Positions 1,762-45,667 of a stretch of DNA of 64,000 nt are shown here, one piece after another. This DNA comes from Akkermansia muciniphila (GTDB lineage Bacteria; Verrucomicrobiota; Verrucomicrobiia; Verrucomicrobiales; Akkermansiaceae), in assembly GCA_945874895.1 (NCBI GenBank), contig CAMCIC010000004.1, positions 124,001 to 188,000 of the forward strand. Reading direction: 5' to 3'. How positions within the stretch are numbered: the first letter of the stretch is position 1; the number at the start of each line of letters is the position of its first letter. The position numbers and the translations under genes are program-made. A model generated the notes under the pieces. The model was not told where the DNA came from. It ran no database searches and saw only the letters and a list, made by a program, of their open reading frames with translations.

Positions 1762-1908
1762 CGAGTAGAGCGGGAAGCCATGTGTAGAGCGAGAAACCGC
1801 GAAATTCCACTAAAATGCACCAATACGGTTTTTTCTTTCATCACCGATCCATGCATGAACCGAGCAAAATTCTCTTTAGTGAAAAAAATTCATACTTTGT
1901 GAGCAAGT

Positions 1909-1924
1909 TGGCGCGATTTCTGCT
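1909..1924 (+). promoter_or_regulatory. Candidate sigma-54 (-24/-12) promoter for glutamine synthetase
   Basis: The sequence TGGCGCG-N4-CTGCT matches the RpoN consensus TGGCACG-N4-TTGCA at 9 of 12 defined positions, including the essential GG at -24 and GC at -12 with exact spacing. It lies about 100 bases upstream of the ATG at 2024, leaving room for a leader of roughly 90 bases. Sigma-54 control of glutamine synthetase is well known in other bacteria. No NtrC binding site was identified by eye. Confidence 0.5.
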
Positions 1925-2023
1925 TACTAAATCTCGAGATACTGATATTTCGCAAATTTCACTCGCAAGTTTGTTTGATTTGTCCAATATCCGCTCGCCT
2001 CGAACTCAATACACATAACTACC

Positions 2024-3040
2024 ATGACCAAATTCAAATTGGAATACATCTGGCTGGACGGTTACACGCCCGTTCCTAATCTCCGCAGCAAAACTCAGAT
2101 CAAAGCATTTGAGTCGTTTCCCACCCTTGAGCAGCTTCCGAACTGGGGCTTTGACGGCAGCTCGACCCAGCAGGCTGAAGGCCGTAGTTCCGACTGCGTG
2201 CTCAAACCCGTTGCGATCTATCCTGACTCCACACGCCTCAATGGTGCTCTGGTGATGTGCGAGGTCATGATGCCCGATGGCGTTACCCCACACCCTAGCA
2301 ACTCACGCGCCACAATTCTTGACGATGCCGGCACTTGGTTCGGCTTCGAACAAGAGTATTTCCTCTACCAGAATGGTCGTCCCCTCGGTTTCCCGAAAGA
2401 CGGATACCCCGCTCCTCAAGGTCCATACTACTGCGGTGTGGGCTACAACAACGTGGGTGACATCGCCCGTCAGATTGTTGAGGAACACCTTGATCTCTGC
2501 TTGGAAGCAGGAATCAACCACGAGGGCATCAATGCCGAGGTGGCAAAAGGCCAGTGGGAGTTCCAAATCTTCGGCAAAGGCTCCAAGAGAGCTGCTGACG
2601 AGATCTGGGTGGCCCGCTACATCCTGCAACGCGTCTGCGAAAGCTATGGCGTCGACGTGGAATGGCATTGCAAGCCGCTCGGTGCTACCGACTGGAATGG
2701 ATCCGGCATGCACTGCAATTTCTCCACCGAATACATGCGCGAAACGGGTGGAAAAGAGTATTTCGAAAAACTGATGGCAGCTTTCGAGAAAAACCGCAAT
2801 GAGCACATCGCTGTCTACGGTCCAGACAACCACATGCGTCTGACCGGTCTGCATGAGACTCAATCGATCGACATGTTCAGCTACGGCGTGGCTGACCGCG
2901 GCGCTTCGATCCGTGTTCCCCACAGCTTTGTGAACAATGGCTACAAGGGTTACTTGGAAGACCGTCGTCCGAACAGCCAAGGCGATCCATACGCGATTGC
3001 TGGACGCGTGCTCAAGACGATTGCCGAAGTGGCGATCTAA
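2024..3040 (+). CDS. glnII: Glutamine synthetase, type II (eukaryote-like)
   Basis: Makes glutamine from glutamate, ammonia and ATP. The 338-residue length and the sequence identify the GSII family (eukaryotic and rhizobial GlnII), not the roughly 470-residue GSI enzyme. Visible signatures are the beta-grasp start ending in NWGFDGSSTQQA, the metal-binding WFGFEQEYF stretch, the ATP-loop region NGSGMHCNFST, and RGASIRVPH near the C terminus. GSII lacks the adenylylation loop of GSI, so control is probably transcriptional. That fits the sigma-54-like promoter upstream. A strong terminator follows, so the gene is probably monocistronic. The ATG at 2024 starts the family-typical N terminus. Confidence 0.96.
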   Translation: MTKFKLEYIWLDGYTPVPNLRSKTQIKAFESFPTLEQLPNWGFDGSSTQQAEGRSSDCVLKPVAIYPDSTRLNGALVMCEVMMPDGVTPHPSNSRATILDDAGTWFGFEQEYFLYQNGRPLGFPKDGYPAPQGPYYCGVGYNNVGDIARQIVEEHLDLCLEAGINHEGINAEVAKGQWEFQIFGKGSKRAADEIWVARYILQRVCESYGVDVEWHCKPLGATDWNGSGMHCNFSTEYMRETGGKEYFEKLMAAFEKNRNEHIAVYGPDNHMRLTGLHETQSIDMFSYGVADRGASIRVPHSFVNNGYKGYLEDRRPNSQGDPYAIAGRVLKTIAEVAI

Positions 3041-5217: not shown

Positions 5218-6288
5218 TTAGCCCAAGACATCGTCCATGGCATCGATGAGCTGTTGCATGGTCGCCGTGGTTTCATTGCCCATATTCGAGATTCGGAAAG
5301 TGATGCCTTTGATTTTCCCGTATCCGCCGTTGATGAGGAGATTGTGTTTGGTCTTGAGAGCCTTGATGAAAGCAGATTGGTCGAAGCCATCGGGAGTGTG
5401 GAAGCAACTCAGACTCACCGAACGAAAACCCTCCGGTGCGAAATGCTGGAACCCGTGACGTGCCGCCCAATCGTGAATCATGCGATTGTTCTCCGCATGA
5501 CGAGCAAAACGATTTTCCAATCCTTCGGCTGCGATGGTTTCAAGCATGTGCTGTAATCCAAAAATCAGAGAAATGGCAGGGGTAGATGGTGTGTTGTTCG
5601 CCGCTGCATTTTTTTCAAACTCCACAAAGTCAAAGTAATATCCGCGATTTTTTGTAGCCTTCGCACGTTCCAATGCGGCATCGGAAATGGCGAAGATCGT
5701 AAGACCGGGAGGGAGCGCCATCGCTTTTTGCACGCCAGCCAGTAATACGTCGATGCCGAGCTCATCCATCGCATGAGGAACGGCGGAAAAGGACGAGACG
5801 GTATCGACAATAAGCATCACATCGGGAAACGATTTCACCACTTGGGCGATGGCTTTGATATCACTCATCACGCCTGTGGATGTCTCGTTGTGGATGAAGG
5901 TAACAGTGTCAAATCCACCTTCCGCCAGCTTAGAACGCACTTGCGCAGGATCGATGGGTTGACCCCATTCGTATTGCAACTTCTCTACATCCTTGCCGAG
6001 TTTTTTTGCTACATCGAACCATTTGTCCGAAAATGCGCCATTGCAGAGAGTGAGAATTTTTTTCTGCGTCAAATTGCATAATGACGCTTCCATCACGCCC
6101 CATGCGGATGAGGTAGAAAGAAAAACAGGACGCTTGGTGCCCGCCAATTGCTGCAGTCCGGGCTGGGTCGAGGCATAGAGTGCTTCGAATTCCGCACCGC
6201 GGTGACCAATCATGGGACGCGACATGGCCGCGAAGGTAGCAGGGGAGACATCGATAGGACCGGGAATGAAAAGTTTGGGAGTTGCCAT
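5218..6288 (-). CDS. Class V aminotransferase, probable phosphoserine aminotransferase
   Basis: A 356-residue PLP enzyme of the class V (alanine-glyoxylate/serine-pyruvate/phosphoserine) aminotransferase group. It opens with IPGPIDVSP and MIGHRGAEFEALY, typical of the family. The PLP-ring-contacting aspartate is D162 (VDTVSSF) and the Schiff-base lysine is K188 (AGVQKAMALPPG). The next gene encodes a phosphoserine phosphatase domain only 15 bases away. The best reading is therefore conversion of 3-phosphohydroxypyruvate to phosphoserine, replacing classical SerC. Alanine-glyoxylate or serine-pyruvate activity cannot be excluded from sequence. It is the first gene of a two-gene operon. Confidence 0.88.
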   Translation of the reverse strand: MATPKLFIPGPIDVSPATFAAMSRPMIGHRGAEFEALYASTQPGLQQLAGTKRPVFLSTSSAWGVMEASLCNLTQKKILTLCNGAFSDKWFDVAKKLGKDVEKLQYEWGQPIDPAQVRSKLAEGGFDTVTFIHNETSTGVMSDIKAIAQVVKSFPDVMLIVDTVSSFSAVPHAMDELGIDVLLAGVQKAMALPPGLTIFAISDAALERAKATKNRGYYFDFVEFEKNAAANNTPSTPAISLIFGLQHMLETIAAEGLENRFARHAENNRMIHDWAARHGFQHFAPEGFRSVSLSCFHTPDGFDQSAFIKALKTKHNLLINGGYGKIKGITFRISNMGNETTATMQQLIDAMDDVLG

Positions 6289-6359
6289 AGCTGTGGGCGA
6301 GAACAGTGATCGCTGTGTAGGCTTTTGTCAAAGCGCGATGCCGCCATGATGCCAGATTT

Positions 6360-7304
6360 TTAGCGCCCCGACTCAGTGGCTGGATCAGGCAGGCGAAGAG
6401 TACAGCCAGGGATTTTACAGATCAAAGCCCTCGCTTGTTCTGGCATCAAGACACAACAAGCGGTAGCGAGAGCATCACTTTGCGCAGCTGTGGGCGCAAT
6501 GACTGTAGCAGCTACGGGGCGCGACAAACCGAGACCAGTCTGGGGATCAATGATGTGGGCGTATCGGACACCATCAATTTTCACCGCCTGCTGCAAATCA
6601 CCCGAGGTCGATACCGCACAGTCGGACAAAGTGAGAGTCGTCTCCTCCATGTCGTTTCCGAGCGCTCTGACACCAATGGTCCATCCCTTTTGTCCCGGGG
6701 GCGGATCGCCCATTCTCACATCACCACCGGCGGTAATTGATGTGCGGCGCAATTGATGCTGAAAAAAAATCGCCAGCATCGCATCAGCGGCCTGACCTTT
6801 GGCGATCCCGCCCAAATCGAGTCGCATTCCCGATGCCTTCAACGTGATGGTGCGTTTGCTTGCATCGAGCGCTAAGAGACGATAACCACTGGACTCGCGG
6901 GCTTGTTGAATCATCTCAGCAGCGGGCATTTTTTGACGACGGCGTGACTCGCGCCAAATCTTGGTCAATGGCCCGAGAGTGGGGTCGAATGCGCCATCGG
7001 TCAGCACGGCCATGTGTCGTGCTTGTTCGAGCAAACAAAACAATCGCATTGAGACGACAATAGGCTGATGGGTAGGCTTTTTCGATAACTGCAATAGCTC
7101 GGAGTCAGCTATGTAATCGGAGGCCACCTCGTTGATGGCCTCAGCTTCAGCAAAAGCCGCCATGGAGGCTTTCTGCGCCACTTCTTGAGAGGGCGCGTAT
7201 GTTTGAATGCGAAAAAGGGTTCCCATCAAAGGGCGCTCAAACTCATAGCGCTCGTCTGCATGAAGCAGATGGGAAAAAACGAGCCACGTTAGCAAAATGC
7301 GCAT
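6360..7304 (-). CDS. apbE: FAD:protein FMN transferase (ApbE family)
   Basis: Attaches FMN covalently to threonines of exported flavoproteins. The protein has an N-terminal signal peptide (MRILLTWLVFSHLLHA) and the ApbE signatures: MGTLFRI, DGAFDPTLGPL, LDLGGIAKGQAAD, ITAGGDVRMG and YAHIIDPQTG. Length is about 314 residues from the start chosen here. The ATG at 7304 directly precedes the signal peptide and leaves 4 bases after the upstream FGE-like gene; an ATG at 7322 would overlap that gene by 14 bases and is the alternative. No obvious flavinylation target (NqrB, NqrC, RnfG or FMN-bind protein) lies in the window. Confidence 0.92.
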   Translation of the reverse strand: MRILLTWLVFSHLLHADERYEFERPLMGTLFRIQTYAPSQEVAQKASMAAFAEAEAINEVASDYIADSELLQLSKKPTHQPIVVSMRLFCLLEQARHMAVLTDGAFDPTLGPLTKIWRESRRRQKMPAAEMIQQARESSGYRLLALDASKRTITLKASGMRLDLGGIAKGQAADAMLAIFFQHQLRRTSITAGGDVRMGDPPPGQKGWTIGVRALGNDMEETTLTLSDCAVSTSGDLQQAVKIDGVRYAHIIDPQTGLGLSRPVAATVIAPTAAQSDALATACCVLMPEQARALICKIPGCTLRLPDPATESGR

Positions 7305-33690: not shown

Positions 33691-33910
33691 TCACTAGCGT
33701 ATGGTTCGACAATTGCAAAACATATCCATGTTCAATCGGGAAAAACGTCGGAATCCTCATTTTCATGCAGGATTTTCTCCATCTATCTCCAAAAAATCAT
33801 TTGCGCTGTATCGCAAAACAAATCAGGTTCTTTCTGCGCCATACCCATCGCCTATGAGCTTACGTCGTCCCAGACCAAATCATCACCACTCGGCATCCAT
33901 CAAGTCGCTC

Positions 33911-35965
33911 ATGCGATTCACACTGGCCATATGCACGTTGGGTTTGGCTCTCACGGTGGAGGCTCTTGAAGTCAACGATGAAGCATCGCTGACCGCTGCG
34001 ATCGATCAAGATTCATCTCGTCTGCAAGCGGCAGAAGATGAACTCAAACGCCTCGCTCACGAATGGTTCGCCCAACCCGTGGATGCCAATTTTATCCAAT
34101 TTTTGCACAACCCAGAAGTCTTCACGGGATTGCTTTGTTCGGGCAAGTATCCAGAGTCGATGAGTCAGTCACTCGATGTTCTCTTCCGCATTTGGAAAGC
34201 GGATACTTCATCGCTCAAGGGATCCGAATTGTCCACAGCACTCGCCGTTGCGCTGGTCTTTGGGGATCAGAAATGGCCCTCGGAACATGCCATGGCGCGC
34301 TACGTCTATTATCGTGATTCGCGCAGGAATGGACTGCTGCATCCGATGTTTGACACCTTGAATGTTTGGGAAAAGCGTTTTGTCGTGCGCGGTGGCGGCA
34401 ATGGCAGCTATCAATCCCATGGTGGCTGGGATGATCTATCGTTACTCTGGTTGCGTGACAACGTGAAACTCCCTGCCAAGGATTATACAGGTGCTTGTTG
34501 GCAAGCGCCCTATCGGTTGAACAACGTGTATGGGGACTCCATTCATGGAGCAAATTACTATCTCCCCTTCGAGAATCTGAACCATGCGCAGCGCGTTCGC
34601 GAGATAGGAGGTGTTTGCGGATCCCTGAGTCACTACGGTGCCAATGCTGCCATGGCCAACGGCATTCCCGCTCTCACCATGGGCGAACCAGGGCATTGCG
34701 CATATGCCGTGCGGACCGATGCTGAGACCTGGACGCCCGCCTACTCTCTCACTTGGGAACGGGGTCTGCACCATTCTCTCTGGCCGCAGCACACGTGGAC
34801 GAGCCTCATCCTTCAAAACAAAGTATTGGCATCGCGTTACGATCACGAAAAGAGCCAGAGTTTTCTCTGGTTCGCGCGGCGTTTGACGAAACAACAACCT
34901 GAATTGGCGGAGTCAGCATACCGCATGGCTCTTGAATCTCAACCGCTCCATTTACCGGCTTGGATCGAAGCCGCGCAGTTTCGCGCCACTCGCCAAACGG
35001 ATGCCGCATCGTGGAGCATGATGCAGAAATCGGCGCTGTCTGCATTGTCGGATTATCCCGAGTCGGCATGGGAAGCGGTGAAGATCATACAAAAAAACGC
35101 ACTTCCCTTGATGAATCCAGATCAACGCATTGACTTTTTGATGGCCTATCATCAAGCCATTGCCACCAGCGAGGGCCCCGTCATGTGGCACTTTGACAAG
35201 GCACTCGCGGAGCAGGCATCATGGCTCTCTGATGATCGGGAACGCCTTGCCTTTTTCGAGGCGGTGCTCGCGGTGCAATCCGCATCGAAGTCATGGTTTG
35301 CGCCCACGATCGCATGGGGTCAGCGCGCATTCACGCAAAAACCGGAAACCAGTGAAACCTACTATGCGACTTTGGGACGGGTCTTTGCCGCGGCAGCCGG
35401 GGGAACGAATGTCGATGGACTGCGTTCCGCTCTTCGCCCTGCGATCCTCGCCGCAGCATCGTCCCAAAACGTGTCTGCATTCCAGGCACTGGGTCAAGCA
35501 GGCAAGACTTTTCTCCCCCAAAAACCGATCGATTACGAAGCATTTCCCGGTGACCTTCTCAGTTCCGGAGGATTGCTCAAGCCAACCTCCACGAGCAACT
35601 GGGATACACCGGAACAGCACTGGGGGGTTCTCGAATCGACAGGTGGGAGCTTTCATACGAACCGAGAAGTTCACGCCGGATGCCTTGTGCGTCTCGGTAA
35701 GCTGGGCGATCTCTCAGGCATTGTCATCGTCAATCAAGGGGGCGGTCAGAATGGACCTCGTCAAATTCCCCTCAGCGTTTCCGTTTCCGAAGACGGTCAA
35801 CAGTGGACAGAAGTATTCACGAGCCGCGAAAATGCTCCTCTGTGGCGTATTCCGCTTCAAGGAAAAGCCTCACGTGTTCAGTTCATCAAAGTCGCTCGTA
35901 GTGACGATAGAAATGAATTTTTCCACCTCTCCGCCATTCACGCTTACGGGAAACGACTCCAATGA
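33911..35965 (+). CDS. Exported transglutaminase-like protein with C-terminal discoidin-like domain
   Basis: A 684-residue exported protein (signal MRFTLAICTLGLALTVEA). A transglutaminase/papain-like catalytic core is visible: nucleophile Cys 236 in REIGGVCGSLSHY, then GIPALTMGEPGHCAYAV with His 262, followed by a Trp/Asp-containing segment. The middle (about 320-540) is helical and TPR-like (LAESAYRMALESQP). Residues 545-684 form a beta-rich F5/8 type C (discoidin-like) domain (VSVSEDGQQWTEVF ... VQFIKVARSDDRNEFFHLSAIHAYG), typical of carbohydrate or surface binding. The stop overlaps the next gene (ATGA), so the two proteins are coupled. ATG 33854 would give a longer N terminus. Substrate unknown. 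Confidence 0.75.
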   Translation: MRFTLAICTLGLALTVEALEVNDEASLTAAIDQDSSRLQAAEDELKRLAHEWFAQPVDANFIQFLHNPEVFTGLLCSGKYPESMSQSLDVLFRIWKADTSSLKGSELSTALAVALVFGDQKWPSEHAMARYVYYRDSRRNGLLHPMFDTLNVWEKRFVVRGGGNGSYQSHGGWDDLSLLWLRDNVKLPAKDYTGACWQAPYRLNNVYGDSIHGANYYLPFENLNHAQRVREIGGVCGSLSHYGANAAMANGIPALTMGEPGHCAYAVRTDAETWTPAYSLTWERGLHHSLWPQHTWTSLILQNKVLASRYDHEKSQSFLWFARRLTKQQPELAESAYRMALESQPLHLPAWIEAAQFRATRQTDAASWSMMQKSALSALSDYPESAWEAVKIIQKNALPLMNPDQRIDFLMAYHQAIATSEGPVMWHFDKALAEQASWLSDDRERLAFFEAVLAVQSASKSWFAPTIAWGQRAFTQKPETSETYYATLGRVFAAAAGGTNVDGLRSALRPAILAAASSQNVSAFQALGQAGKTFLPQKPIDYEAFPGDLLSSGGLLKPTSTSNWDTPEQHWGVLESTGGSFHTNREVHAGCLVRLGKLGDLSGIVIVNQGGGQNGPRQIPLSVSVSEDGQQWTEVFTSRENAPLWRIPLQGKASRVQFIKVARSDDRNEFFHLSAIHAYGKRLQ

Positions 35966-37200
35966 AACTTCTCACACGCATCGCGACTGCCATGATCTTC
36001 TGCTGTGCGGCCCCAGCCGCTCAGCGTGCCAGCGACTACCAGGACGCCAAGCGTCTGGCCAAAGAAAATGCATCTGACATCGTCGTTCTGGTCATCGGAT
36101 CTGACTGGAATCAACCAAGCCGACGCTACGCCACGGCATGGAACGATGCGGCATTCGTTAGCTCATTGCCACCCCAGACGATACTGTTGTGTTGGGACAA
36201 ACAAGAAAGTCCCGATGAAGCAGCCAAGGCCTGCGCCCTAAAAAATAAGGAATGCCCTGCAGCGGTGCGTAGCATCCCGGGGCTTGCCTTGATCGATAAA
36301 GATGGGCGTCTGGTGGGATCAAGAAACGGCGCACAGGAACTGGGTGATCCCTCGATGCTCGTCAGGCATATCAAGAGCCTGGTGGCCATCCGAGAGCAGC
36401 GAGATGCCTGTTGGAAAAGGGCGGAACAGATACAAGGAGTCAAACGCGCGGAAGCACTAGGACAAGGACTGGATATCATGGGACAGCGTCTAGGGCACGC
36501 GAAAGCTTACGACCCGGTTTTACAGGAAATCAAAAAAGCCGACCCCGATGACAAAAGTGGATACGTGGGCAAATACCAATTTCCCGGCGCCGATCTAGCG
36601 CCTCACGTTTTATCGACCTACGCGCAAAAAAAATTGTTTTCAGAAGGAGAAAACTACCTGCTGCAGTGGCATCGTAATTCTCGTCTGGATGCGGAACAGC
36701 GCCAGCATCTGCAAGCCGCGCGATTCTGCCTCTATCAAAACTGGCCTGAAAAACAGGCCATGGTTCGCAAGGCTCTGGAAGATCTGCGCGATGTTGATCC
36801 CAAAAGCATCATGGGGCAGTCGGCGGCTCGCTATCTTGAGCACCTTTTCCCGCCTCTCACCTACGAAGGTGGATGGAAACCAAGTCACCTCAATGGTCAA
36901 CGGTCGTCATGGAAAATGGATGTCACTCGACAAATTTCTGAGAAAAGAAACTACGCCCTCACATTCCAATATCAATCAGGGGGTGACGCCCTTGTCATCC
37001 ATGGCACCAAACTCATGGACCGCCAAGGAGAACTGAGCGTGGACGAGCATGCGGGCAGCACAGGTCATCAGAATAAGGAAAACACCTACCGATTTTCCCT
37101 CAAGCGTCGCCCAGTGGGGCAGGTCTGGCTGCATACCGAAGTCTCCGCGGGGACCCGCAATGATAGCGCGGGAACTTTTTTGATAGAGACGGCTCAATAG
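35962..37200 (+). CDS. Exported thioredoxin-like protein lacking redox cysteines
   Basis: A 412-residue exported protein (signal MKLLTRIATAMIFCCAAPAA). Residues 25-145 follow a thioredoxin fold: VVLVIGSDWNQPSRRY stands where WCxxC would be, with N50 and S53 in place of both cysteines. The cis-proline region is present (RSIPGLALIDKDGRLVG). The rest is helical (150-280), ending in a beta-rich segment (about 300-412). It therefore should not be an oxidoreductase; it may be a scaffold or peroxiredoxin-like binding domain. Coupled by a 4-base overlap to the transglutaminase-like gene, so the pair is likely one exported system. Confidence 0.75.
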   Translation: MKLLTRIATAMIFCCAAPAAQRASDYQDAKRLAKENASDIVVLVIGSDWNQPSRRYATAWNDAAFVSSLPPQTILLCWDKQESPDEAAKACALKNKECPAAVRSIPGLALIDKDGRLVGSRNGAQELGDPSMLVRHIKSLVAIREQRDACWKRAEQIQGVKRAEALGQGLDIMGQRLGHAKAYDPVLQEIKKADPDDKSGYVGKYQFPGADLAPHVLSTYAQKKLFSEGENYLLQWHRNSRLDAEQRQHLQAARFCLYQNWPEKQAMVRKALEDLRDVDPKSIMGQSAARYLEHLFPPLTYEGGWKPSHLNGQRSSWKMDVTRQISEKRNYALTFQYQSGGDALVIHGTKLMDRQGELSVDEHAGSTGHQNKENTYRFSLKRRPVGQVWLHTEVSAGTRNDSAGTFLIETAQ

Positions 37201-37222
37201 ATTCTCGGCGATACCGTGCTCC

Positions 37223-38206
37223 TCATGAGTCAGCAGGGATGGTTTTCAAAAACTCGCGACTGAAGGAAATGCGGTCTGCGGCCTTTTCCGTAGGATGAAT
37301 CTTGTGGCGATCCACCACCGGTTGCAACCGTTTCATCAAGCCGATGCCGTTTGCCATCTGGATGGCCAATCCCGGACGAGCATTGACCTCGATCATCAGC
37401 GGACCTCTTGTTTCATCCACCATCAAGTCCACACCGAGATAGCCCAGTTCGGTCATTTCATGGCATGTGACTGCGATCTCCAAAATCTTTTCCCAAAACG
37501 GAATGCGCACTCCAATCAACGGCGTTTTCAAGTCAGGATGAACATCCACCATAGATCCATGATGCACAGCGCGCACTGTCAATCCACTTGCCAGATCGAT
37601 CCCGATGCCGATGGCTCCCTGATGCAGGTTCGCCCTGCCATCTGACTCCTTGGTTGCCGCGCGCAACATCGCCATCACAGGATAGCCGTGAAGCATGACG
37701 ATGCGAATATCGGGCGCCCCTTGGAAACTGATTGCAGTGAGAATTTGGGTAGGAATGACACGATATTCGATCAATACATGGTCACGATTGCCCCCCAAAC
37801 TGAATAAGCCCGCCAGTATGTTTTCTGCATGATGGCGCAATTCATCACCACTCAAGCGTGAACCGCTTGGTTTCACATAAGAATCGCCATCGCGATGATC
37901 GATTACCATCACCCCTTTGCCACCACTGCCACGAGCGGGCTTCATCACAAACGAATCGTATACTGAGAGCTTCTGCTCCATCGTAGCTACATCGTGCGGA
38001 GATTTCACTACAAGATAGGTTTGTGGCACTTCCAGACCACGCTCCTCAGCGAGAGCCTTGGTGATCAACTTATCATCGACGCGTTGGTAGAGATGCCTTG
38101 GATTGTTCGGTAAAAGAAAGCGGGCATTGCGCATATTAATGCCCATCACACCCATGACACTCAGTTCATGAGGAGTGCGAAACCAACGGTGCCACCAGTG
38201 TTTCAT
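37223..38206 (-). CDS. Alpha-L-glutamate ligase-like ATP-grasp protein (RimK-related)
   Basis: A 327-residue ATP-grasp enzyme. Core motifs are DKLITKALAEERGLEVPQTY, FVMKPARGSGGKGVMVI (ATP-binding loop), HVLIEYRVIPTQIL and the magnesium-binding PLMIEVNARPGLAIQMAN. This matches the RimK-related glutamate ligase-like family that occurs with a retropepsin-like protease and a transglutaminase-7TM protein, both encoded directly upstream. Such ligases join amino acids, often glutamate, to an amino group. The product here is unknown. It is the last gene of the three-gene cassette, 10 bases after the 7TM gene. Confidence 0.85.
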   Translation of the reverse strand: MKHWWHRWFRTPHELSVMGVMGINMRNARFLLPNNPRHLYQRVDDKLITKALAEERGLEVPQTYLVVKSPHDVATMEQKLSVYDSFVMKPARGSGGKGVMVIDHRDGDSYVKPSGSRLSGDELRHHAENILAGLFSLGGNRDHVLIEYRVIPTQILTAISFQGAPDIRIVMLHGYPVMAMLRAATKESDGRANLHQGAIGIGIDLASGLTVRAVHHGSMVDVHPDLKTPLIGVRIPFWEKILEIAVTCHEMTELGYLGVDLMVDETRGPLMIEVNARPGLAIQMANGIGLMKRLQPVVDRHKIHPTEKAADRISFSREFLKTIPADS

Positions 38207-38216
38207 TCGTATCGGA

Positions 38217-39764
38217 TCAAGCTTCTGTGAAATTGCGGAAGCGGTGCAACTCGCTCAAACGGTAACCCGTATAGCGTCCGATCAGCAGAATGGCCGCTAG
38301 TAAAACAAGCAACAGTTCAGGGAAATACTGCGCCCAATACTGGATTTGAGGCACCTTCATCACCAGATAAGCGACGACAGCAACCACCACCGATCCTCCC
38401 ACCTGCATGATCGCGCTACGCTTGCCCTCTTCCTCCCAAATCAACGACATCCGCTCGATGGTCCATGCTATGATGATCATGGGAAACAAGGTGATTTGCA
38501 ATCCACCGCGCATTCCCATGCGCCAACTTACGATCGACATGACCAGCATGAGCAAAGTCACAATCACCACGCAGGCGGCAACCCGAGGAACAACGAGCAA
38601 ATTCATACTTGAAAGAAGAAATCGGAAATACAATCCGACCGCTACGATGACAGAGAACATCGCAATCCCTCGTCCCAAATCCATCTCCAAAAATGCGAGT
38701 GCCAAAAGAACCGGCATGAAAGTACCCAAAGTGGGAAGGCCCACAATGTTTCGCAGAATCACAACCACGAAGGCCCCCAGAGGAATCAGAACCACGTATC
38801 GAAACACCGCGCGCTCAGACACAGGAAGCGCCAAGATGGTCGAAGCCAGCAGAGTCGACCCCCGCAAATGATTCATGCGTTCAACGGGAATCATGTCGCG
38901 CACCACGGTGAAACTCACTTTGGAATTTTCTCCGCCATACACCTCCAACAAGGGAATACCACCACGATTCCATACGAATGTGCTGTCGCCGCGAAGACTC
39001 ACGTTCGGCTGCGCAGGGTTTTTTACTTTCCATGTCGTGCCATCACAATACTCGATCAAAGGAATCGCCTGCTGTGGACCAGCTCCCGCATCCAATCGGA
39101 TTCCGTGAGCAAGGCGCGCGGGAATCCCCGCCATTTGCAAAAGATCAATTCCCATCACAATCAACAACTTCTCCGCCGTGACTTTTTCCACCTGCTCGTA
39201 GTGGCGTCTCAACAACAGCACCTCCTGAGCGGAATGATCCTTCGAAACTTGCAGGAATAAATGAGTAAAAAAAGTATCTGTATCAGCAGAAACCTCTCTG
39301 GATTTTTGAATCAGAACCTGAGCTGCTCTATCGATCGAACCCGAAAAACCTGGTGCCACAGCGATCGGAGGAGTCCCCGTCACCTCTTCCCCTCCTCCAC
39401 CCGTTGGAAAGTGTTCGGGAAATCGAACCCGATAGTAGAGAGCGTGAGATCCGTCCCTGGGTTGACGAGCCGACCACACTGCCTTCACTCCGGATGCTCC
39501 GGTATCCGTATGAAACCCGAAGCCCAGTGACCCGGCATCTTGACCTACGTTCTCATCGTAGGCCGCCGAAGGCAACGCCAGCTTGATGCTGCAGGGCTGG
39601 TCACCAACGGAAAAAAACGTGACCTTGGCTTCCACCAACCAAGAAGATGACTTTTTTCCCACCCAGATCGGCACACCCAATGTGCGGTTTTTCACGATTG
39701 TGAAACCGATTCCCATCGCACACAAAAATATCACGGACAGGACCAGTCTCATGGGCGAGGACAT
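38217..39764 (-). CDS. Inactive transglutaminase fused to seven-helix membrane domain
   Basis: A 515-residue inner-membrane protein. A single N-terminal helix (LVLSVIFLCAMGIGFTIV) leads into an exported domain whose transglutaminase core is recognisable by AGIPARLAHGIRLDAG and the GTTWKVKNP strand, but the nucleophile cysteine is missing (region EKLLIVMGIDLLQM). About seven hydrophobic helices follow from residue 330 on (VLIPLGAFVVVILR ... LLLVLLAAILLIGR). This is the known 'inactive transglutaminase fused to 7TM' type, always found with the neighbouring ligase and protease. ATG 39764 leaves 10 bases after the protease gene; an ATG at 39830 would overlap it by 56 bases. Confidence 0.85.
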   Translation of the reverse strand: MSSPMRLVLSVIFLCAMGIGFTIVKNRTLGVPIWVGKKSSSWLVEAKVTFFSVGDQPCSIKLALPSAAYDENVGQDAGSLGFGFHTDTGASGVKAVWSARQPRDGSHALYYRVRFPEHFPTGGGGEEVTGTPPIAVAPGFSGSIDRAAQVLIQKSREVSADTDTFFTHLFLQVSKDHSAQEVLLLRRHYEQVEKVTAEKLLIVMGIDLLQMAGIPARLAHGIRLDAGAGPQQAIPLIEYCDGTTWKVKNPAQPNVSLRGDSTFVWNRGGIPLLEVYGGENSKVSFTVVRDMIPVERMNHLRGSTLLASTILALPVSERAVFRYVVLIPLGAFVVVILRNIVGLPTLGTFMPVLLALAFLEMDLGRGIAMFSVIVAVGLYFRFLLSSMNLLVVPRVAACVVIVTLLMLVMSIVSWRMGMRGGLQITLFPMIIIAWTIERMSLIWEEEGKRSAIMQVGGSVVVAVVAYLVMKVPQIQYWAQYFPELLLVLLAAILLIGRYTGYRLSELHRFRNFTEA

Positions 39765-39774
39765 GTCACGTATC

Positions 39775-40461
39775 TTAGCGCATGATTTTGTCGTCGGCAA
39801 GATATGTTCGACTGGGATCCACCCAGCCAAGAACTTGGATGGTGGATCGACCGATCAACACAGGACAATTCATATTGTTCCGGTTGTTGAGGGAAAATTC
39901 CGCTTTGACTGTCCGCTCGCCGATTTGGAAAGTCAAACGCACTACATTGCGGCGCAGGGAATCTCCGCCTGGTTCCTTGATCATCACCGTCCGTATCAAT
40001 GGTGCCTCCATGTCGTAGCGCTTGGCATCCACTTTATGGGGATCCGTCACTGCGAACCTGACCCATTTCTTACCGTCGCGCTCGAAAATTTGCTGATTTT
40101 CCGCATGGAGGGAACTCGTGGTGGCTCCAGTATCAAGCTTTGCTACCATCGCATCGGCCATACCAACGATTTTGATTTTCTCCTGCCATCCGAATACCTG
40201 TATCGGATCAGAACTAACGGGCCGGGCGACTTTCGCCGTATCTGCCGCTTCGATTTTCTCCGCTAGGACTTCCTCATCTTGCACGGAATCCGCCGATGCT
40301 TCTCCAGTGGCATGCTGCCCATGGTGCTCGGGAGTGGATGATGATTGGCTAGATTTGAGGGGAGACTTGGGATTTTTTCCTGACTCCACCGCTTCGCAAA
40401 AAGCCAATGATCCTACGGCGATCCAAACCCTTAGTGTGAGGAAAGAAAAATTTTCCATCAT
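39775..40461 (-). CDS. Exported retropepsin-like aspartic protease (Zn_protease family)
   Basis: A 228-residue protein of the family named ATP-dependent zinc protease (PF05618 type), now understood as retropepsin-like. The catalytic aspartate is D110 in AKLDTGATTSSLHA. The fold continues through VRFAVTDPHKVDAKRYD and ends in PVLIGRSTIQVLGWVDPS, matching the family. The first 25 residues are a signal peptide or anchor (FSFLTLRVWIAVGSLAFCEA), followed by a Ser/His-rich linker to residue 80. It is the first gene of the cassette with the 7TM and ATP-grasp proteins. The target is probably the ligase product or an exported polypeptide; this is inference. Confidence 0.88.
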   Translation of the reverse strand: MMENFSFLTLRVWIAVGSLAFCEAVESGKNPKSPLKSSQSSSTPEHHGQHATGEASADSVQDEEVLAEKIEAADTAKVARPVSSDPIQVFGWQEKIKIVGMADAMVAKLDTGATTSSLHAENQQIFERDGKKWVRFAVTDPHKVDAKRYDMEAPLIRTVMIKEPGGDSLRRNVVRLTFQIGERTVKAEFSLNNRNNMNCPVLIGRSTIQVLGWVDPSRTYLADDKIMR

Positions 40462-40521
40462 AAGGCGTATGGATCTCGATAGGTCTCCAGCGGAATGGAC
40501 ATCCGCTGAGAAAAATCAGCG

Positions 40522-41307
40522 TTAGCGGGAAGCCACCGGTGCTTTCGGTTGATGAGCTTTGAGAGCTGCGTCAGACAATCCTTTTTCCCAAGTCTTGTAT
40601 TCCGCTGCTTCAATCACTTCCAGAGAACCAACCATGTTGCCATGACCTTCTCCGCAAAGCTGTCCGCAAACGACCGAAGTTTCCAGGGTCTTGATCGGAG
40701 TGAACCACATGGGAATTTCCTTGCCAGGAATCGCATCCTGCTGAATGCGCATCGGCACGATGGAATAATTGTGGATCACATCTTTTGTGCCGATATTGAG
40801 GATGGCAGGAATGCCCTTAGGCAATTTCAGAATAGGACTGGTAAAGTCGTCGGCGGCATTTGGGTCAGTATAATCGATTCCAAGCTCATTGGTGCTGGAA
40901 ATGGCGAAGGGATCAATGCGACCGAACTTACCGTCTGCGCCTGGGTAATGATAAGTCCAGCCGAACTGCCATCCCACTACGCGCACGCGCACGTGATCGT
41001 TTTGCACCACGAGTTTGAAAGTATCCGTTCTTTCGCGCCATAAAGGAATGGCAAAACCGAGCAACAAGACAGCCTCGATGATGATCACCGCAATTTCGAT
41101 ATGCGAAGAAGCATGGTTGGTCACACCATGATAATCTGCCTTAGGTCGGGCTGAGCGACGGAAGCGCAACAGAGTCACAGCCATGTAAACGGACCAACCG
41201 ATGAACAAGACGATCATGAACCAATGCACCACATCGATAAGGTGGTCAACCTGAGGGCCATGGTCGGAAAAACTATCGGGAATACCTAGGAATTTGGATG
41301 GAGACAT
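40522..41307 (-). CDS. ctaC: Cytochrome c oxidase subunit II
   Basis: A 261-residue subunit carrying the CuA centre that accepts electrons from cytochrome c. CuA ligands are complete: His 179 in DVIHNY and the VCGQLCGEGHGNM cluster (Cys 214, Cys 218, His 222, Met 225). Two N-terminal membrane helices precede the cupredoxin domain (VVHWFMIVLFIGWSVYMAV and IEIAVIIIEAVLLLGFAIPLW). The aromatic patch WQFGWTYHYPG is present. No C-terminal cytochrome c domain, so aa3-type, not caa3 fused. It is unusual that it is the last gene of the oxidase operon, 12 bases after two tiny membrane-protein genes. Confidence 0.95.
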   Translation of the reverse strand: MSPSKFLGIPDSFSDHGPQVDHLIDVVHWFMIVLFIGWSVYMAVTLLRFRRSARPKADYHGVTNHASSHIEIAVIIIEAVLLLGFAIPLWRERTDTFKLVVQNDHVRVRVVGWQFGWTYHYPGADGKFGRIDPFAISSTNELGIDYTDPNAADDFTSPILKLPKGIPAILNIGTKDVIHNYSIVPMRIQQDAIPGKEIPMWFTPIKTLETSVVCGQLCGEGHGNMVGSLEVIEAAEYKTWEKGLSDAALKAHQPKAPVASR

Positions 41308-41319
41308 AAGAACGGAAGA

Positions 41320-41529
41320 TTAGGGAGCAACAGGAGTTTCAGAGACAAGGGCGGCTTCCTCTTCCATGGCGCATTTTTTCGCCCTCAGGGCGAGACGCAC
41401 CATGAAAAAAACGATGGATGCCGCTACGAGCACTATGACAATGAGCAGAAAAAAGATCGACCAACCGACGGCATCACTGCCACCGAGAGCACTATTGGCC
41501 TGACATGTCACACAAGAAAGCATGGTCAT
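41320..41529 (-). CDS. Small membrane protein in cox operon
   Basis: A 69-residue protein with one helix (VGWSIFFLLIVIVLVAASIVFFMVRL) and a short exported N terminus containing SCVTCQANSALG, in which a CxxC pair might bind metal or form a disulfide. Its place inside the cytochrome oxidase operon suggests an accessory or assembly role. No family is recognised. Two start ATGs (41529, 41523) are possible. Confidence 0.6.
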   Translation of the reverse strand: MTMLSCVTCQANSALGGSDAVGWSIFFLLIVIVLVAASIVFFMVRLALRAKKCAMEEEAALVSETPVAP

Positions 41530-41535
41530 AAAAGG

Positions 41536-41736
41536 TTAGAGAATCATATTGGCGGACTTCTTCCAGAAATAAACCGCGTAAATGGGAACCAACAGCAGTC
41601 CAGCAACGCCGCACCATCCGATGGCACGAGTCATGGCCGATGCGTCGACCGACCAAACAAAAGACCACATCACAAAAAACAGACTCATCAGAAATGTGAA
41701 GGCAACAAAAACGATGTGAAAAGATTTGAGTGACAT
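41536..41736 (-). CDS. Small two-helix membrane protein in cox operon
   Basis: A 66-residue protein with two hydrophobic segments (FHIVFVAFTFLMSLFFVMW and GVAGLLLVPIYAVYFWK). It sits between subunit IV and another small membrane-protein gene in the oxidase operon. Probably an oxidase accessory or assembly peptide; no known family was recognised. Confidence 0.6.
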   Translation of the reverse strand: MSLKSFHIVFVAFTFLMSLFFVMWSFVWSVDASAMTRAIGWCGVAGLLLVPIYAVYFWKKSANMIL

Positions 41737-41758
41737 GGCAATGGAGCTTTCGTGAAAA

Positions 41759-42106
41759 TTAAAACGGCAGACCGATATTGAATCCGTTGAAATGAATGGG
41801 GTCGCTTTTGGCAGCCATGATCAGAGCAATCATGAAGGCGAAGAACACCATCGCTCCGAAGAAGATCCAGTAGATGGCCTTTTTCTCATGATTCAAGTGC
41901 ATGAAAATGTATCCAACGAGGGTAGCCTTAAACGACGCGATCAGAAGACCGAGGATCATGTCCCAGTGGTCGAAACCATGAACGCCGATATCCAAGGCAG
42001 GGATCGTCGCTACGGCAACCGTGACGCCGGTGAAGATGAAAAGAACGAGTCCAATGACCGTGTAGATCTTGAGCGACTTTTTGATTTGTTCGGGTGAATC
42101 AGCCAT
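41759..42106 (-). CDS. Cytochrome c oxidase subunit IV-type protein
   Basis: A 115-residue protein with three membrane helices, matching prokaryotic oxidase subunit IV (COX4_pro/CtaF type): IKKSLKIYTVIGLVLFIFTGVTVAVA, DMILGLLIASFKATLVGYIFMHL and AIYWIFFGAMVFFAFMIALIMA (each quoted in part as visible in the sequence). Conserved HLNHEKK between helices two and three is a hallmark. It stabilises or helps assemble subunits I and III. The gene is the third of the operon, 24 bases after subunit III. Confidence 0.88.
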   Translation of the reverse strand: MADSPEQIKKSLKIYTVIGLVLFIFTGVTVAVATIPALDIGVHGFDHWDMILGLLIASFKATLVGYIFMHLNHEKKAIYWIFFGAMVFFAFMIALIMAAKSDPIHFNGFNIGLPF

Positions 42107-42130
42107 AAATCAGGGTGGGGAAATGGGGAA

Positions 42131-43732
42131 TTACATCAAATAGAGGATGGGGAAGAGGAAGATCCAGACAAGGTCCACGAAGTGCCAGAACAATCCGCCG
42201 ACTTCGACCCGATTGGCAAGCCACTCGGGATTGCTGAGATACATTTTTTTGCCACGGAAAAGGTAGTAACCGAGAACTACAGCGCCGCCTATCACGTGCA
42301 AGCCGTGGAGGAAAGTCATGGTAAAGTAAATCGCGTAGTAGGTGTTCCAAGCGGGCGTAAACTTGCCACTGAGGAAGACGAGTTCCCGCGGAACGTGCAG
42401 ATGAGGGAATGTGTGCTTGGACTCACGCAGATGGTAATCAGGGCCCATGAATTCCTCACTGGTGTGAATGGTTTCCTTGCCTTTATCCACGCCATCGGCT
42501 TTTGCCACAAAATCTTTCCAACCGATGCGGTAGCGCTCAGTCACGGTGGGAACACGCTTGGGCTGATTGCTGCTGTCGAGTCCATACTTTTCAAGCAGAT
42601 GTTTTTCCAGCTTGGCCGTTTGCGATTTGTTCCATTCCCAAGCTGCCTTGGCCTCTTTGCTGTGCTTGATCAACCAAGTGTTTTCGATGGCGACTTCGGG
42701 ATCAATCCCCTTCTCTTGAGCCTTCATCACCACATGACGGAAATCAATGGCATCCAAGTTATGAAATGCGATAGGACTTTCTTCGAGCTTACCAATGACC
42801 GCTGTGTCATCACGGAGACGAGATTGGCCCTCACCTTCCTTGATGTCGCGATGGGCAAACCACAAATTGGTAGGAGGAGTTACCGAGAAGGTGACACTCG
42901 AAGTTTCCTTCATCAGAGCATCTTCGATTTTGGCGACATTGACATTGATTTTTGGCGCCAGCTCCCATCCTTTTTTCCCCGCATTTTCGGTTTTGGCTTT
43001 GGCTGCGGCCCACTCGCCACGCAGGGCATCGGTTCGCACGGAGGAATTGTTCGCACGAGCACGCAGGTGATTTTTCTGGATTTGCTCAAGCAGTTCTACG
43101 CTCAGCTTAGTTCCCGCGCTGAGTTTATCGTTTTCTAGTTCAAGATCCTCTGCGAGTGCAATGGTAGCGTTGCTCGATGCAGCTTGACGCAGAATCTCCT
43201 CAACCCAAGGTTTGTGGAAACGAACCGTGTTGAATGTGAGTTTCTCGGCATGGACGTGGATCTGATCCGCTTCCGCGAGAAGGGCCTTCCCTTCTTTGTC
43301 CTTCTTGCCGGTATCGGCTTTTGGATCTTTGTCGAGGTGTCCCTCTAAGATCGTGTAATCCGTGAGACGAACCGCTTGGTGGTGCCATTTCACATTGTAT
43401 TCAATGGCTTTCAAAACCATGAACACGCCGGCACAAACGATCGTGATCCCCATGCAGAGTTGGAACATGGCCCATTTGCGCAACTTGAGAGCAGCCCAAG
43501 CGAAAACCACGGTCACTGATGAAAAGATCAGAACGAAGGTATTGATCAGACCGGGCAGCACAGGAAGGGCGCGCTCGGGCCATGGGTAATCAGCGCCGAG
43601 ACGCAAATACACATACGACGAAAAGAAACCACCAAAGAGCATGACCTCAGAAGCGAGGAAAAGCCAAATGGCGATCTTGGAATTGACCATTCCCGTGTCT
43701 TTGCGAGGAGTGAAAATATAAGGAATTTCCAT
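42131..43732 (-). CDS. ctaE: Cytochrome c oxidase subunit III with long internal insertion
   Basis: Subunit III of the heme-copper oxidase: N-terminal helices KIAIWLFLASEVMLFGGFFSSY (residues 19-40), INTFVLIFSSVTVVFAWAAL (63-82) and CMGITIVCAGVFMVLKAIEY (93-112) are canonical, and the last 90 residues (YYAIYFTMTFLHGLHVIGGA, then GLFWHFVDLVWIFLFPILY) complete the usual fold. Between them lies about 320 residues of charged, lysine/glutamate-rich sequence (about 117-440) with no membrane helix, making 533 residues where about 200-280 is normal. The frame is continuous. The insert should lie outside the membrane. Its function is unknown. Confidence 0.93.
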   Translation of the reverse strand: MEIPYIFTPRKDTGMVNSKIAIWLFLASEVMLFGGFFSSYVYLRLGADYPWPERALPVLPGLINTFVLIFSSVTVVFAWAALKLRKWAMFQLCMGITIVCAGVFMVLKAIEYNVKWHHQAVRLTDYTILEGHLDKDPKADTGKKDKEGKALLAEADQIHVHAEKLTFNTVRFHKPWVEEILRQAASSNATIALAEDLELENDKLSAGTKLSVELLEQIQKNHLRARANNSSVRTDALRGEWAAAKAKTENAGKKGWELAPKINVNVAKIEDALMKETSSVTFSVTPPTNLWFAHRDIKEGEGQSRLRDDTAVIGKLEESPIAFHNLDAIDFRHVVMKAQEKGIDPEVAIENTWLIKHSKEAKAAWEWNKSQTAKLEKHLLEKYGLDSSNQPKRVPTVTERYRIGWKDFVAKADGVDKGKETIHTSEEFMGPDYHLRESKHTFPHLHVPRELVFLSGKFTPAWNTYYAIYFTMTFLHGLHVIGGAVVLGYYLFRGKKMYLSNPEWLANRVEVGGLFWHFVDLVWIFLFPILYLM

Positions 43733-43774
43733 AAAAAAACGTGTGAATAGAGAAAAACGAGGGACTGACTCGGA

Positions 43775-45667
43775 TCAGTGATGCGCTTGCACGGGTTTAG
43801 GGGAGTCCACAGGTGAATCGGACTGAGGCTTGTCCCACTGTGGTGTGAAATCCTGACTTGCGCCGGGTTGGCTGTATTCGTAGGGCCCGCGATAAGCGGC
43901 GACATCAAAGGTGAAATTGCCATGTCCTGGAGGAGTAGGAGTGGCCCATTCCAAAGTGGTAGCATTCCAAGGATTGTCACTTTCCACTTTTTTACCGCGG
44001 AAGATGGAGACAAAAATGTTGATGATGAATGGCAATTGGAAAGCAGCCATGATCCAAGCCGACCAGGACATCACGATGTTTAGGTCGATGTTCTCGGCAA
44101 CGGTTTTGCCAAACACGTTGGCGGAGTCTGCTGCTTTAGCGAGGTAAGCGTCACCGCCGTTATACCAACGACGATGGAAACCCGCCATCCCTTGAATCAA
44201 CATGGGGAAGAACAGGAAGTTCATGCAGACAAGGGTAGGCCAGAAGTGCAGGTGATTGAGAGTCTTGCTGAGGTAGCGACCTGTGATCTTAGGATACCAA
44301 TGATGCACACCACCAAAGAGGCCGAACAAAATGCCGGGAGCGACAACGTAGTGAAAGTGCCCGATCACGTAGTAGGTATCGTGCAAATGGAGATCCACGA
44401 GGTTAAACGCGAGGGGCAGACCCGTGAGTCCACCGATGCCAAACATGGGAATGAAGGCACAAGCCCAGATCATGGCGGGAGTGAAGCGGATGGATCCACC
44501 CCACAGCGAGATCATCAGAGCGGTAAGAAGAATGACCGAAGGAACCGAAATCAACACAGTCGTGATCTGGAACCAGGTAGAAATTTTAGGACCCATGCCC
44601 GTGAGATACATGTGGTGAGCCCACACAATGAATGAAAGGAAGCCTAACACGATCACGCCATATACCATGGACTTGTAACCCCACATTGGGCGACGAGTAT
44701 TCGCAGGGATGATTTCTGCCACACAGGCGATGGCGGGCAGCAAGAGCACATACACCTCGGGGTGGCCGAGGAACCAGAACAAGTGTTGGAACAGCAGCGG
44801 ACTACCGCCACCAGAAATCTCCACAAGGCCTTCGGATTTCGTGAAGAGGCCGGAAGGAAGGAAGAACGATGAATGGAACACACGATCGACCAACTGCATC
44901 ACGCCGGCAGCTTCGAGTGGAGGGAAGGCAAGCAGAAGCAAGAAACCAGTCACCAACATGGCCCAAACAAAGAACGGCATGCGCATCCAAGTCATACCAC
45001 GAGCGCGCAGGTTGATAATCGTAGTGACGAAATTGACGGAACCAAGCAGAGAAGAAGTAATGAGTAGAACCAGCCCCAGGAGCCACTGCGTCTGCCCCGC
45101 CAACCATTGGTTGACGATCTGACCGTCGGCGAAACCCGCCAGCGGCGAGTAATTGGTCCATCCTGACTTCGCAGCACCAGACTCCATGAAGAAGGAGGCG
45201 CACATGACCAGACCACCCAATAGGTAAATCCAGTAGGACATCATGTTCAGCTTGGGGAAAGCCATATCGACCGCGCCGATCTGAAGAGGAGTAACGTAGT
45301 TGCCGAATGCACCGAATCCCAGGGGCACAACGCCCAAGAACACCATAATCGTACCGTGCATGGCCCCGAACATATTGTAGGTATCACCGGTCACTTTGCC
45401 ATCTTGGAGCCAACGTGCCTTCCAGTTGTCAGTAAACACCCAGCTCATCCAACCCGGCAGTGGCTCATGAGGGTAGGCGATGGACCAACGCATCACCATC
45501 ATGAGGTAAAATCCGAACAACAGGAACAGCATGGCTGTAATCCCGTATTGGATCCCGATCACCTTGTGATCTGTAGAAAAAACATACTTCTGCAAGAAGC
45601 CCGGTTCATGGTGGTGTCCATGGTCATCGTGATGACTGTGATCTGCGGTCGCTGCGTGTGCGCTCAT
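43775..45667 (-). CDS. ctaD: Cytochrome c oxidase subunit I
   Basis: The 630-residue catalytic subunit with heme a, heme a3 and CuB. The A1-type active-site motif GHPEVYVLLLPA contains the His-Tyr crosslink residues and the D-channel Glu. Other ligands are in AMHGTIM, the HHMY pair and VIGHFHYVVAPG. About 12 membrane helices. The N terminus is unusually histidine-rich (DHSHHDDHGHHHEPG, residues 9-23) and could bind metal, perhaps copper. It is the first gene of the operon; the 192-base gap upstream holds the presumed promoter. The C-terminal tail (about 570-630) is hydrophilic. Confidence 0.97.
   Translation of the reverse strand: MSAHAATADHSHHDDHGHHHEPGFLQKYVFSTDHKVIGIQYGITAMLFLLFGFYLMMVMRWSIAYPHEPLPGWMSWVFTDNWKARWLQDGKVTGDTYNMFGAMHGTIMVFLGVVPLGFGAFGNYVTPLQIGAVDMAFPKLNMMSYWIYLLGGLVMCASFFMESGAAKSGWTNYSPLAGFADGQIVNQWLAGQTQWLLGLVLLITSSLLGSVNFVTTIINLRARGMTWMRMPFFVWAMLVTGFLLLLAFPPLEAAGVMQLVDRVFHSSFFLPSGLFTKSEGLVEISGGGSPLLFQHLFWFLGHPEVYVLLLPAIACVAEIIPANTRRPMWGYKSMVYGVIVLGFLSFIVWAHHMYLTGMGPKISTWFQITTVLISVPSVILLTALMISLWGGSIRFTPAMIWACAFIPMFGIGGLTGLPLAFNLVDLHLHDTYYVIGHFHYVVAPGILFGLFGGVHHWYPKITGRYLSKTLNHLHFWPTLVCMNFLFFPMLIQGMAGFHRRWYNGGDAYLAKAADSANVFGKTVAENIDLNIVMSWSAWIMAAFQLPFIINIFVSIFRGKKVESDNPWNATTLEWATPTPPGHGNFTFDVAAYRGPYEYSQPGASQDFTPQWDKPQSDSPVDSPKPVQAHH

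Follow-up and report, generated by a model that had tools for sequence, protein, structure and literature searches.

An rloABC-like operon in Verrucomicrobiota, with invariant RloB residues confined to the 7TM domain

The rloABC operon was described in Pseudomonas, where three secreted and redundant RloA proteases are required in salt-free medium (PMC12239564, mBio 2025). As described in the portions of that paper used here, removing rloB or rloC restores full growth to the triple RloA mutant in this hypoosmotic medium and relieves its other defects in part. RloA cuts runs of 8 or 10 glutamates but not those of six or fewer, and cuts polyglutamate both at C-termini and inside proteins. The R114A and R137A substitutions lead to the strongest loss of cleavage and fail to rescue the mutant; K46, R114 and R137 are common to RloA and RimB, and two conserved cysteines form a disulfide in periplasmic RloA orthologues. 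Mutants in rlo genes have cell-shape and ampicillin phenotypes, from which the authors suggest a link to the cell wall, and 96% of RloB matches were placed in Proteobacteria. The same portions of this naming paper give no product for the operon, although the Pseudomonas mutants lose osmotic and antibiotic tolerance. A second described system, RimB-RimK, pairs a retropepsin with an ATP-grasp ligase in polyglutamylation of ribosomal protein S6 (PMC11957791). Here we analyse a three-gene cassette at positions 37223-40461 of a 64,000-nucleotide stretch of DNA from a member of the Verrucomicrobiota (the window; contig CAMCIC010000004.1, 124,001-188,000 of the forward strand, assembly GCA_945874895.1), and all positions are those of the window unless another contig or locus is named. 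Judged by its sequence, this cassette is a relative of rloABC, a system known since 2025. What is new is the rlo operon in Verrucomicrobiota and the confinement of invariant RloB residues to the 7TM (seven-transmembrane) domain; the product and mechanism of the cassette are predicted. A search of the literature for the rlo names, the Pfam families concerned and RimK or retropepsins in Verrucomicrobia, with subscription papers mostly outside its scope, returned no description of the operon in Verrucomicrobiota.

The interval is filled by three successive open reading frames (ORFs) on the minus strand, in the rloA-rloB-rloC order of Pseudomonas aeruginosa. The first (39775..40461, 228 amino acids) encodes a probably exported clan AA retropepsin, with a signal-like N-terminal segment, an acidic/lysine linker and a match to Pfam Zn_protease (PF05618, E 8e-38) at residues 89-223; members of this family are named retropepsin-like by NCBIfam. 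Its DTGA catalytic motif occupies residues 110-113 (40123..40134), and the Asp is kept in 51/51 cassette proteases. The second (38217..39764, 515 amino acids) consists of an N-terminal transmembrane segment, a periplasmic dead transglutaminase domain and a 7TM domain, and matches both Transglut_i_TM (PF14400, E 2e-23) and 7TM_transglut (PF14402, E 1e-88). Its start is most likely the ATG at 39764, found at this position in 7/7 near relatives; a 537-residue ORF from TTG 39830 was rejected as an over-long reading. The third (37223..38206, 327 amino acids) encodes a predicted cytoplasmic ATP-grasp ligase matching ATPgrasp_ST (PF14397, E 2e-82) as well as RimK, in which the ATP-grasp positions D260, E273 and N275 are kept. 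The ligase exceeds the cut-off of TIGR02291, a RimK-related glutamate-ligase model (372.7 against 314.2 bits). The NCBIfam names matched are RloA3, RimB, RloA2 and RloA for the protease and RloB for the 7TM protein, in each case below the curated cut-offs. An earlier note made from the DNA letters had read these genes as a retropepsin with a DTGA site, a transglutaminase-7TM protein missing its cysteine and a RimK-like ligase, and the ORFs and profile matches bear this out. Its statement that homologous cassettes exist in other phyla agrees with the published operon, and the match to rloABC makes its suggestion of a peptide-like polymer that is made and trimmed a plausible one, with an acidic polymer.

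The 7TM part of RloB (residues 301-515, 38220..38864) contains all of the residues that are invariant over 53 full-length RloB rows. These number 27 of 215 positions, against 0 of 265 in residues 36-300, a contrast exaggerated by the periplasmic part being harder to align. The median identity to the window protein is 51% in the 7TM part and 27% in the periplasmic part. The remaining row of 54, from a locus at a contig end (L039), was excluded from this count and from the RloB tree. Eight of the invariant residues are charged: R338, R381, R394, E437, R438, E445, E505 and R508. With the N-terminus taken as inside and the helices assigned from hydropathy, we infer that all eight lie at cytoplasmic helix ends, while E483, kept in 53/54 rows, would be periplasmic. 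The predicted position of these eight residues on the cytoplasmic side suggests that the RloB 7TM domain is a receiver or exporter for the RloC product. The contrast within RloB points to where activity should be sought.

The periplasmic domain of the window RloB lacks the transglutaminase cysteine, and no periplasmic column contains Cys in more than 15/54 rows. A weak profile alignment around the GIPAR motif places Ile at the position of the His and Asn at that of the Asp. Dead enzyme domains often bind ligands, and this domain could be the working part of RloB, acting as a periplasmic receptor for which the 7TM domain is a mere anchor. Q231 and W245 are fairly conserved (42/54 rows each); however, with no invariant position and lower identity on the periplasmic side, we regard a receptor of this type as quite improbable.

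RloB was found in 9/9 other genomes searched from the same genus and in 20/56 relatives, not counting the window genome. Across 383 sampled Verrucomicrobiota genomes the RloB 7TM domain is present in 41, belonging to 19 of 191 genera (window genome counted), and it is present in 0/14 control genomes. The operon, whose protease and ligase sites are intact in those copies that were examined, therefore occurs in roughly one in ten of the sampled Verrucomicrobiota genomes, and is not essentially proteobacterial. Among the genomes listed in this comparison, which leaves out 322 of the negatives, 20 of a same-family genus, g3 (G011 and others; 2.2-3.5 Mb), are without the RloB 7TM domain. If g3 is, as a guess, the gut genus Akkermansia, loss of the 7TM protein would accompany departure from dilute water.

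Gene order was compared with 53 other loci, of which 51 are from Verrucomicrobiota and two from Gammaproteobacteria, the latter being the entire proteobacterial sample. We found rloB and rloC together on one strand in 53/53 loci, and the full rloA-rloB-rloC order on one strand in 50/53. The exceptions are L039, where the contig ends before rloA, and two loci (L094 and L105), each from a different genome of a single family. The RloB tree groups the genus as one clade (100/100) within a family clade (99/96), with the same-family genome G022 placed elsewhere; it includes just two rows from Proteobacteria as well as several long branches, and leaves room for different numbers of transfers.

The protease can be compared with solved structures, the nearest by sequence being RloA (9g58), RloA2 (9g59) and Lpg0085 (2pma), with E values from 4e-12 to 2e-11. 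A Foldseek search using a low-confidence model of the RloA domain (mean predicted local distance difference test score, pLDDT, 54.4) yielded only six matches with E <= 0.001, all of them RloA, RloA2 or Lpg0085, and serves as back-up to the match by sequence. Following the numbering of 9g58 (P. fluorescens RloA) across 51 aligned cassette proteases, the window protease keeps K46, D48, R92, K97, R114 and R137. D48, R114 and R137 are present in 51/51, as is K or R at position 46, with R92 in 44/51 and K97 in 40/51. As K46, R114 and R137 are reported to be common to RimB (PMC12239564, in the portions used), they mark polyglutamate cutters in general. A hydrophobic N-terminus is seen by eye on the window and same-genus RloA, with lipobox-like ends in several others, and the window RloA is probably exported. 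In the ligase, Lys, Asp-x-Arg, Arg, Asn-Leu-His, Asp and Glu-x-Asn ATP-grasp positions are common to RloC and two verrucomicrobial RimK proteins, and each is retained in 51-52 of 52 rows; L105 and L081 were excluded from this alignment due to over-long open frames, and the RloC of L036 is cut by the contig end.

These similarities raise the question of whether the cassette is a duplicated RimB-RimK pair modifying ribosomal protein S6. RloA does resemble RimB (86.8 bits), and the ligases have the ATP-grasp residues above in common. However, the window genome encodes a separate rimB-rimK pair (L123), where its second PF05618 match adjoins rimK, and a separate clade (support 98/99) unites the three RimB sequences used, to the exclusion of the window retropepsin. 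RloA has, by eye, a signal-like N-terminus, RloC is without the first ~60 residues of RimK, and in Pseudomonas rimB and rloA do not interact genetically (PMC12239564). We consider a RimB-RimK duplicate very unlikely. At a further locus (L124, 2101-3492, minus strand), a 463-residue ORF corresponds to a RimB-like retropepsin fused to a RimK-like ligase.

The kept catalytic residues of RloA and RloC, the dead transglutaminase domain and the published suppression genetics are together consistent with RloC acting in synthesis, RloB in transfer or display and RloA in trimming. We hence lean, by a modest degree, towards the cassette being an rloABC operon that makes, exports or displays, and trims an acidic chain for envelope stability. 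In the proposed mechanism, cytoplasmic RloC would build an acidic chain, either free or attached to an acceptor, from amino acids, of which alpha-L-glutamate is the most likely. The RloB 7TM domain would take over the chain or acceptor on the cytoplasmic side and pass or display it across the inner membrane, with the periplasmic transglutaminase-like domain as a non-catalytic binding or guide module. Exported RloA, expected to be a dimer, would then cut the acidic chain in the periplasm, limiting its length or amount, and the balance of synthesis and trimming would keep the envelope stable in low-osmolarity water. Glutamate as the RloC substrate, RloB as an exporter and a role in this host equal to that in Pseudomonas are inferred. 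A more specific version, which we put forward tentatively and would sooner doubt than assert, is that the RloB 7TM domain represents a novel class of membrane exporter whose cargo is an acidic peptide chain made by a ligase: a cytoplasmic site of invariant Arg and Glu residues would take the RloC product and the dead transglutaminase would guide the chain to the protease, giving a synthase-exporter-trimmer system for periplasmic polyglutamate in Gram-negative bacteria.

Alternatively, there may be no free polymer. RloC and RloB could add short Glu tails, which RloA then removes, to one particular envelope acceptor (protein of the periplasm, lipid or peptidoglycan precursor), akin to the polyglutamylation of tubulin or S6 moved to the envelope. 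The cleavage by RloA of C-terminal as well as internal polyglutamate is in line with such tails, as are the Pseudomonas cell-shape and ampicillin phenotypes with the wall link drawn by the authors (PMC12239564, in the portions used), and RpsF is polyglutamylated by RimK according to a published abstract. The neighbourhood of the operon offers no obvious acceptor: among 81 flanking ORFs taken from 23 loci by crude picking, every Pfam family is limited to two ORFs at most, and there is thus no conserved extra gene by this measure, though an acceptor could be encoded elsewhere. We rate acceptor tails as an unlikely explanation that nevertheless deserves to be taken seriously.

Several observations weigh against the proposal of an acidic chain made, moved and trimmed by the three proteins. 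It is only the protease that suggests polyglutamate as the product, and the portions of PMC12239564 used here report no product of RloC or RloB. The window proteins fall below the narrow NCBI cut-offs, with 128.4 of 210 bits for RloA3 (NF052264) and 293.5 of 900 bits for RloB (NF052267), and 342/383 Verrucomicrobiota genomes are without the RloB 7TM domain. In the protease, M replaces K95 and P replaces R99, and an alignment gap at K109 accompanies a shorter flap. Cys is found at the disulfide column of 9g58 and 9g59 in 0/51 cassette proteases, those of Aeromonas and Legionella included, the second Cys lying outside the aligned stretch; going by the alignment, the disulfide is a mark of an RloA subgroup and not of the three-gene system. 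The RloB topology is taken from hydropathy alone, AlphaFold2 with eight close sequences giving a mean pLDDT of 36.8. The mapping of the transglutaminase triad is weak (hhalign probability 5%), with the Cys position, occupied by Glu, extrapolated by three residues, and the Asp column contains Asp in 20/54 rows and Asn in 19/54. L094 (rloB 482-2032, plus strand) and L105 (rloB 5321-6880, minus strand) carry a divergent rloB next to rloC without an adjacent rloA; the L094 contig has just 481 bp ahead of rloB, and in both genomes the single retropepsin is on another contig and the RloB branch is very long. In favour of the proposal, the distances of RloA are correlated with those of RloB (Mantel r 0.83, 0/999 permutations, 37 rows), but this could arise from shared genome descent alone.

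On the rloC side, two exported genes run convergent to the cassette on the plus strand. The earlier note had placed a cysteine-containing transglutaminase-like gene 22 bp away. That distance is right, but the gene concerned (35962-37200) encodes a 412-residue protein that appears thioredoxin-like by eye, with no Pfam match above cut-off, whereas the gene that is transglutaminase-like and has both Cys and His (33701-35965) lies 1257 bp from rloC and carries its label by motif, having no trusted Pfam match. The two genes could act together with the cassette, cross-linking its polymer for instance: in the window genome they adjoin rloC, and a Cys at transglutaminase-like spacing to a GIPA motif, followed by a His, is present in the larger protein. 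However, convergent orientation means that they are not co-transcribed with it, and synteny largely refutes the association. The pair is missing around rlo in 53/53 other loci (4-8 kb per side, or less at contig ends), including nine from the same genus, and a close orthologue of the larger gene is missing from 7/9 of the other genomes in the genus, where the best full-domain match reaches 31% identity. The two genes are adjacent in 5/5 of the nearest orthologous loci (L114-L118; 49-66% identity), and the pair travels alone, on other contigs or 1.8 Mb distant from rlo. Absence of conserved linkage to the pair, one of the two findings that the earlier note named as refuting its reading, is thus what the other loci show, and a joint function is highly improbable. 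The 33701-37200 region forms its own two-gene unit in these loci.

Upstream of rloA, on the same strand and across a 60-bp gap, lies cox2 (40522..41307), encoding cytochrome oxidase subunit II, which we treat as context and not as part of the system. In 9/9 same-genus loci rloA follows cox2 on the same strand, after 33-81 bp in eight and with a start-call overlap in one; in 0/11 other relatives is cox2 found before rloA within ~8 kb (three on shorter stretches). The cox genes (40522-45667, minus strand in the window) run into rloA in 9/9 same-genus genomes, with no terminator-like site in between in the window, and read-through from the respiratory genes into rloA is possible. Promoter- and terminator-like sites in 37100-41900 are no more frequent than in shuffled sequences, and the folding of the cox2-rloA gap does not exceed chance (z -1.14). 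A search of the window genome for PF14401 (RLAN) gave 0 matches and is uninformative, as its control matched nowhere either.

We also considered rlo as a simple replacement of osmoregulated periplasmic glucans. This was rejected, the window genome having two MdoG homologues (contig C26, 339-1763, and contig C17, 59035-60489), by virtue of which it may have a second low-osmolarity envelope system. MdoG was found in 92/383 genomes and, compared by eye, in 14/41 of those with the RloB 7TM domain, a pattern across families that is confounded by kinship.

Among known systems, RimB-RimK has a retropepsin and ligase with catalytic residues in common with the cassette (PMC11957791, as far as used here). 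It differs in that the protease is without a signal peptide and there is no 7TM protein (PMC12239564, in the portions used), and it is encoded separately in the window genome. The rlo loci of Legionella adelaidensis plasmid 5 (L112) and Aeromonas caviae (L111), both Gammaproteobacteria, contain the same three genes in the same order, with RloB 32-34% identical to that of the window. In comparison with rloABC of P. aeruginosa and P. fluorescens, to the extent that these are described in the material used (PMC12239564; PDB 9g58, 9g59), the window cassette is found in a Verrucomicrobiota host, with cox genes upstream within the genus. Its RloA has a shorter flap, no Cys at the disulfide column and a long linker ahead of the protease domain, and the genome has one RloA and one RimB, in contrast to three RloA and RimB in Pseudomonas. 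Gene order and domain make-up are nonetheless the same: a retropepsin with DTGA, the main basic channel residues and an N-terminus that looks signal-like by eye in the window is encoded alongside an inactive transglutaminase-7TM partner and an ATP-grasp partner, with a separate RimB-RimK present in both cases.

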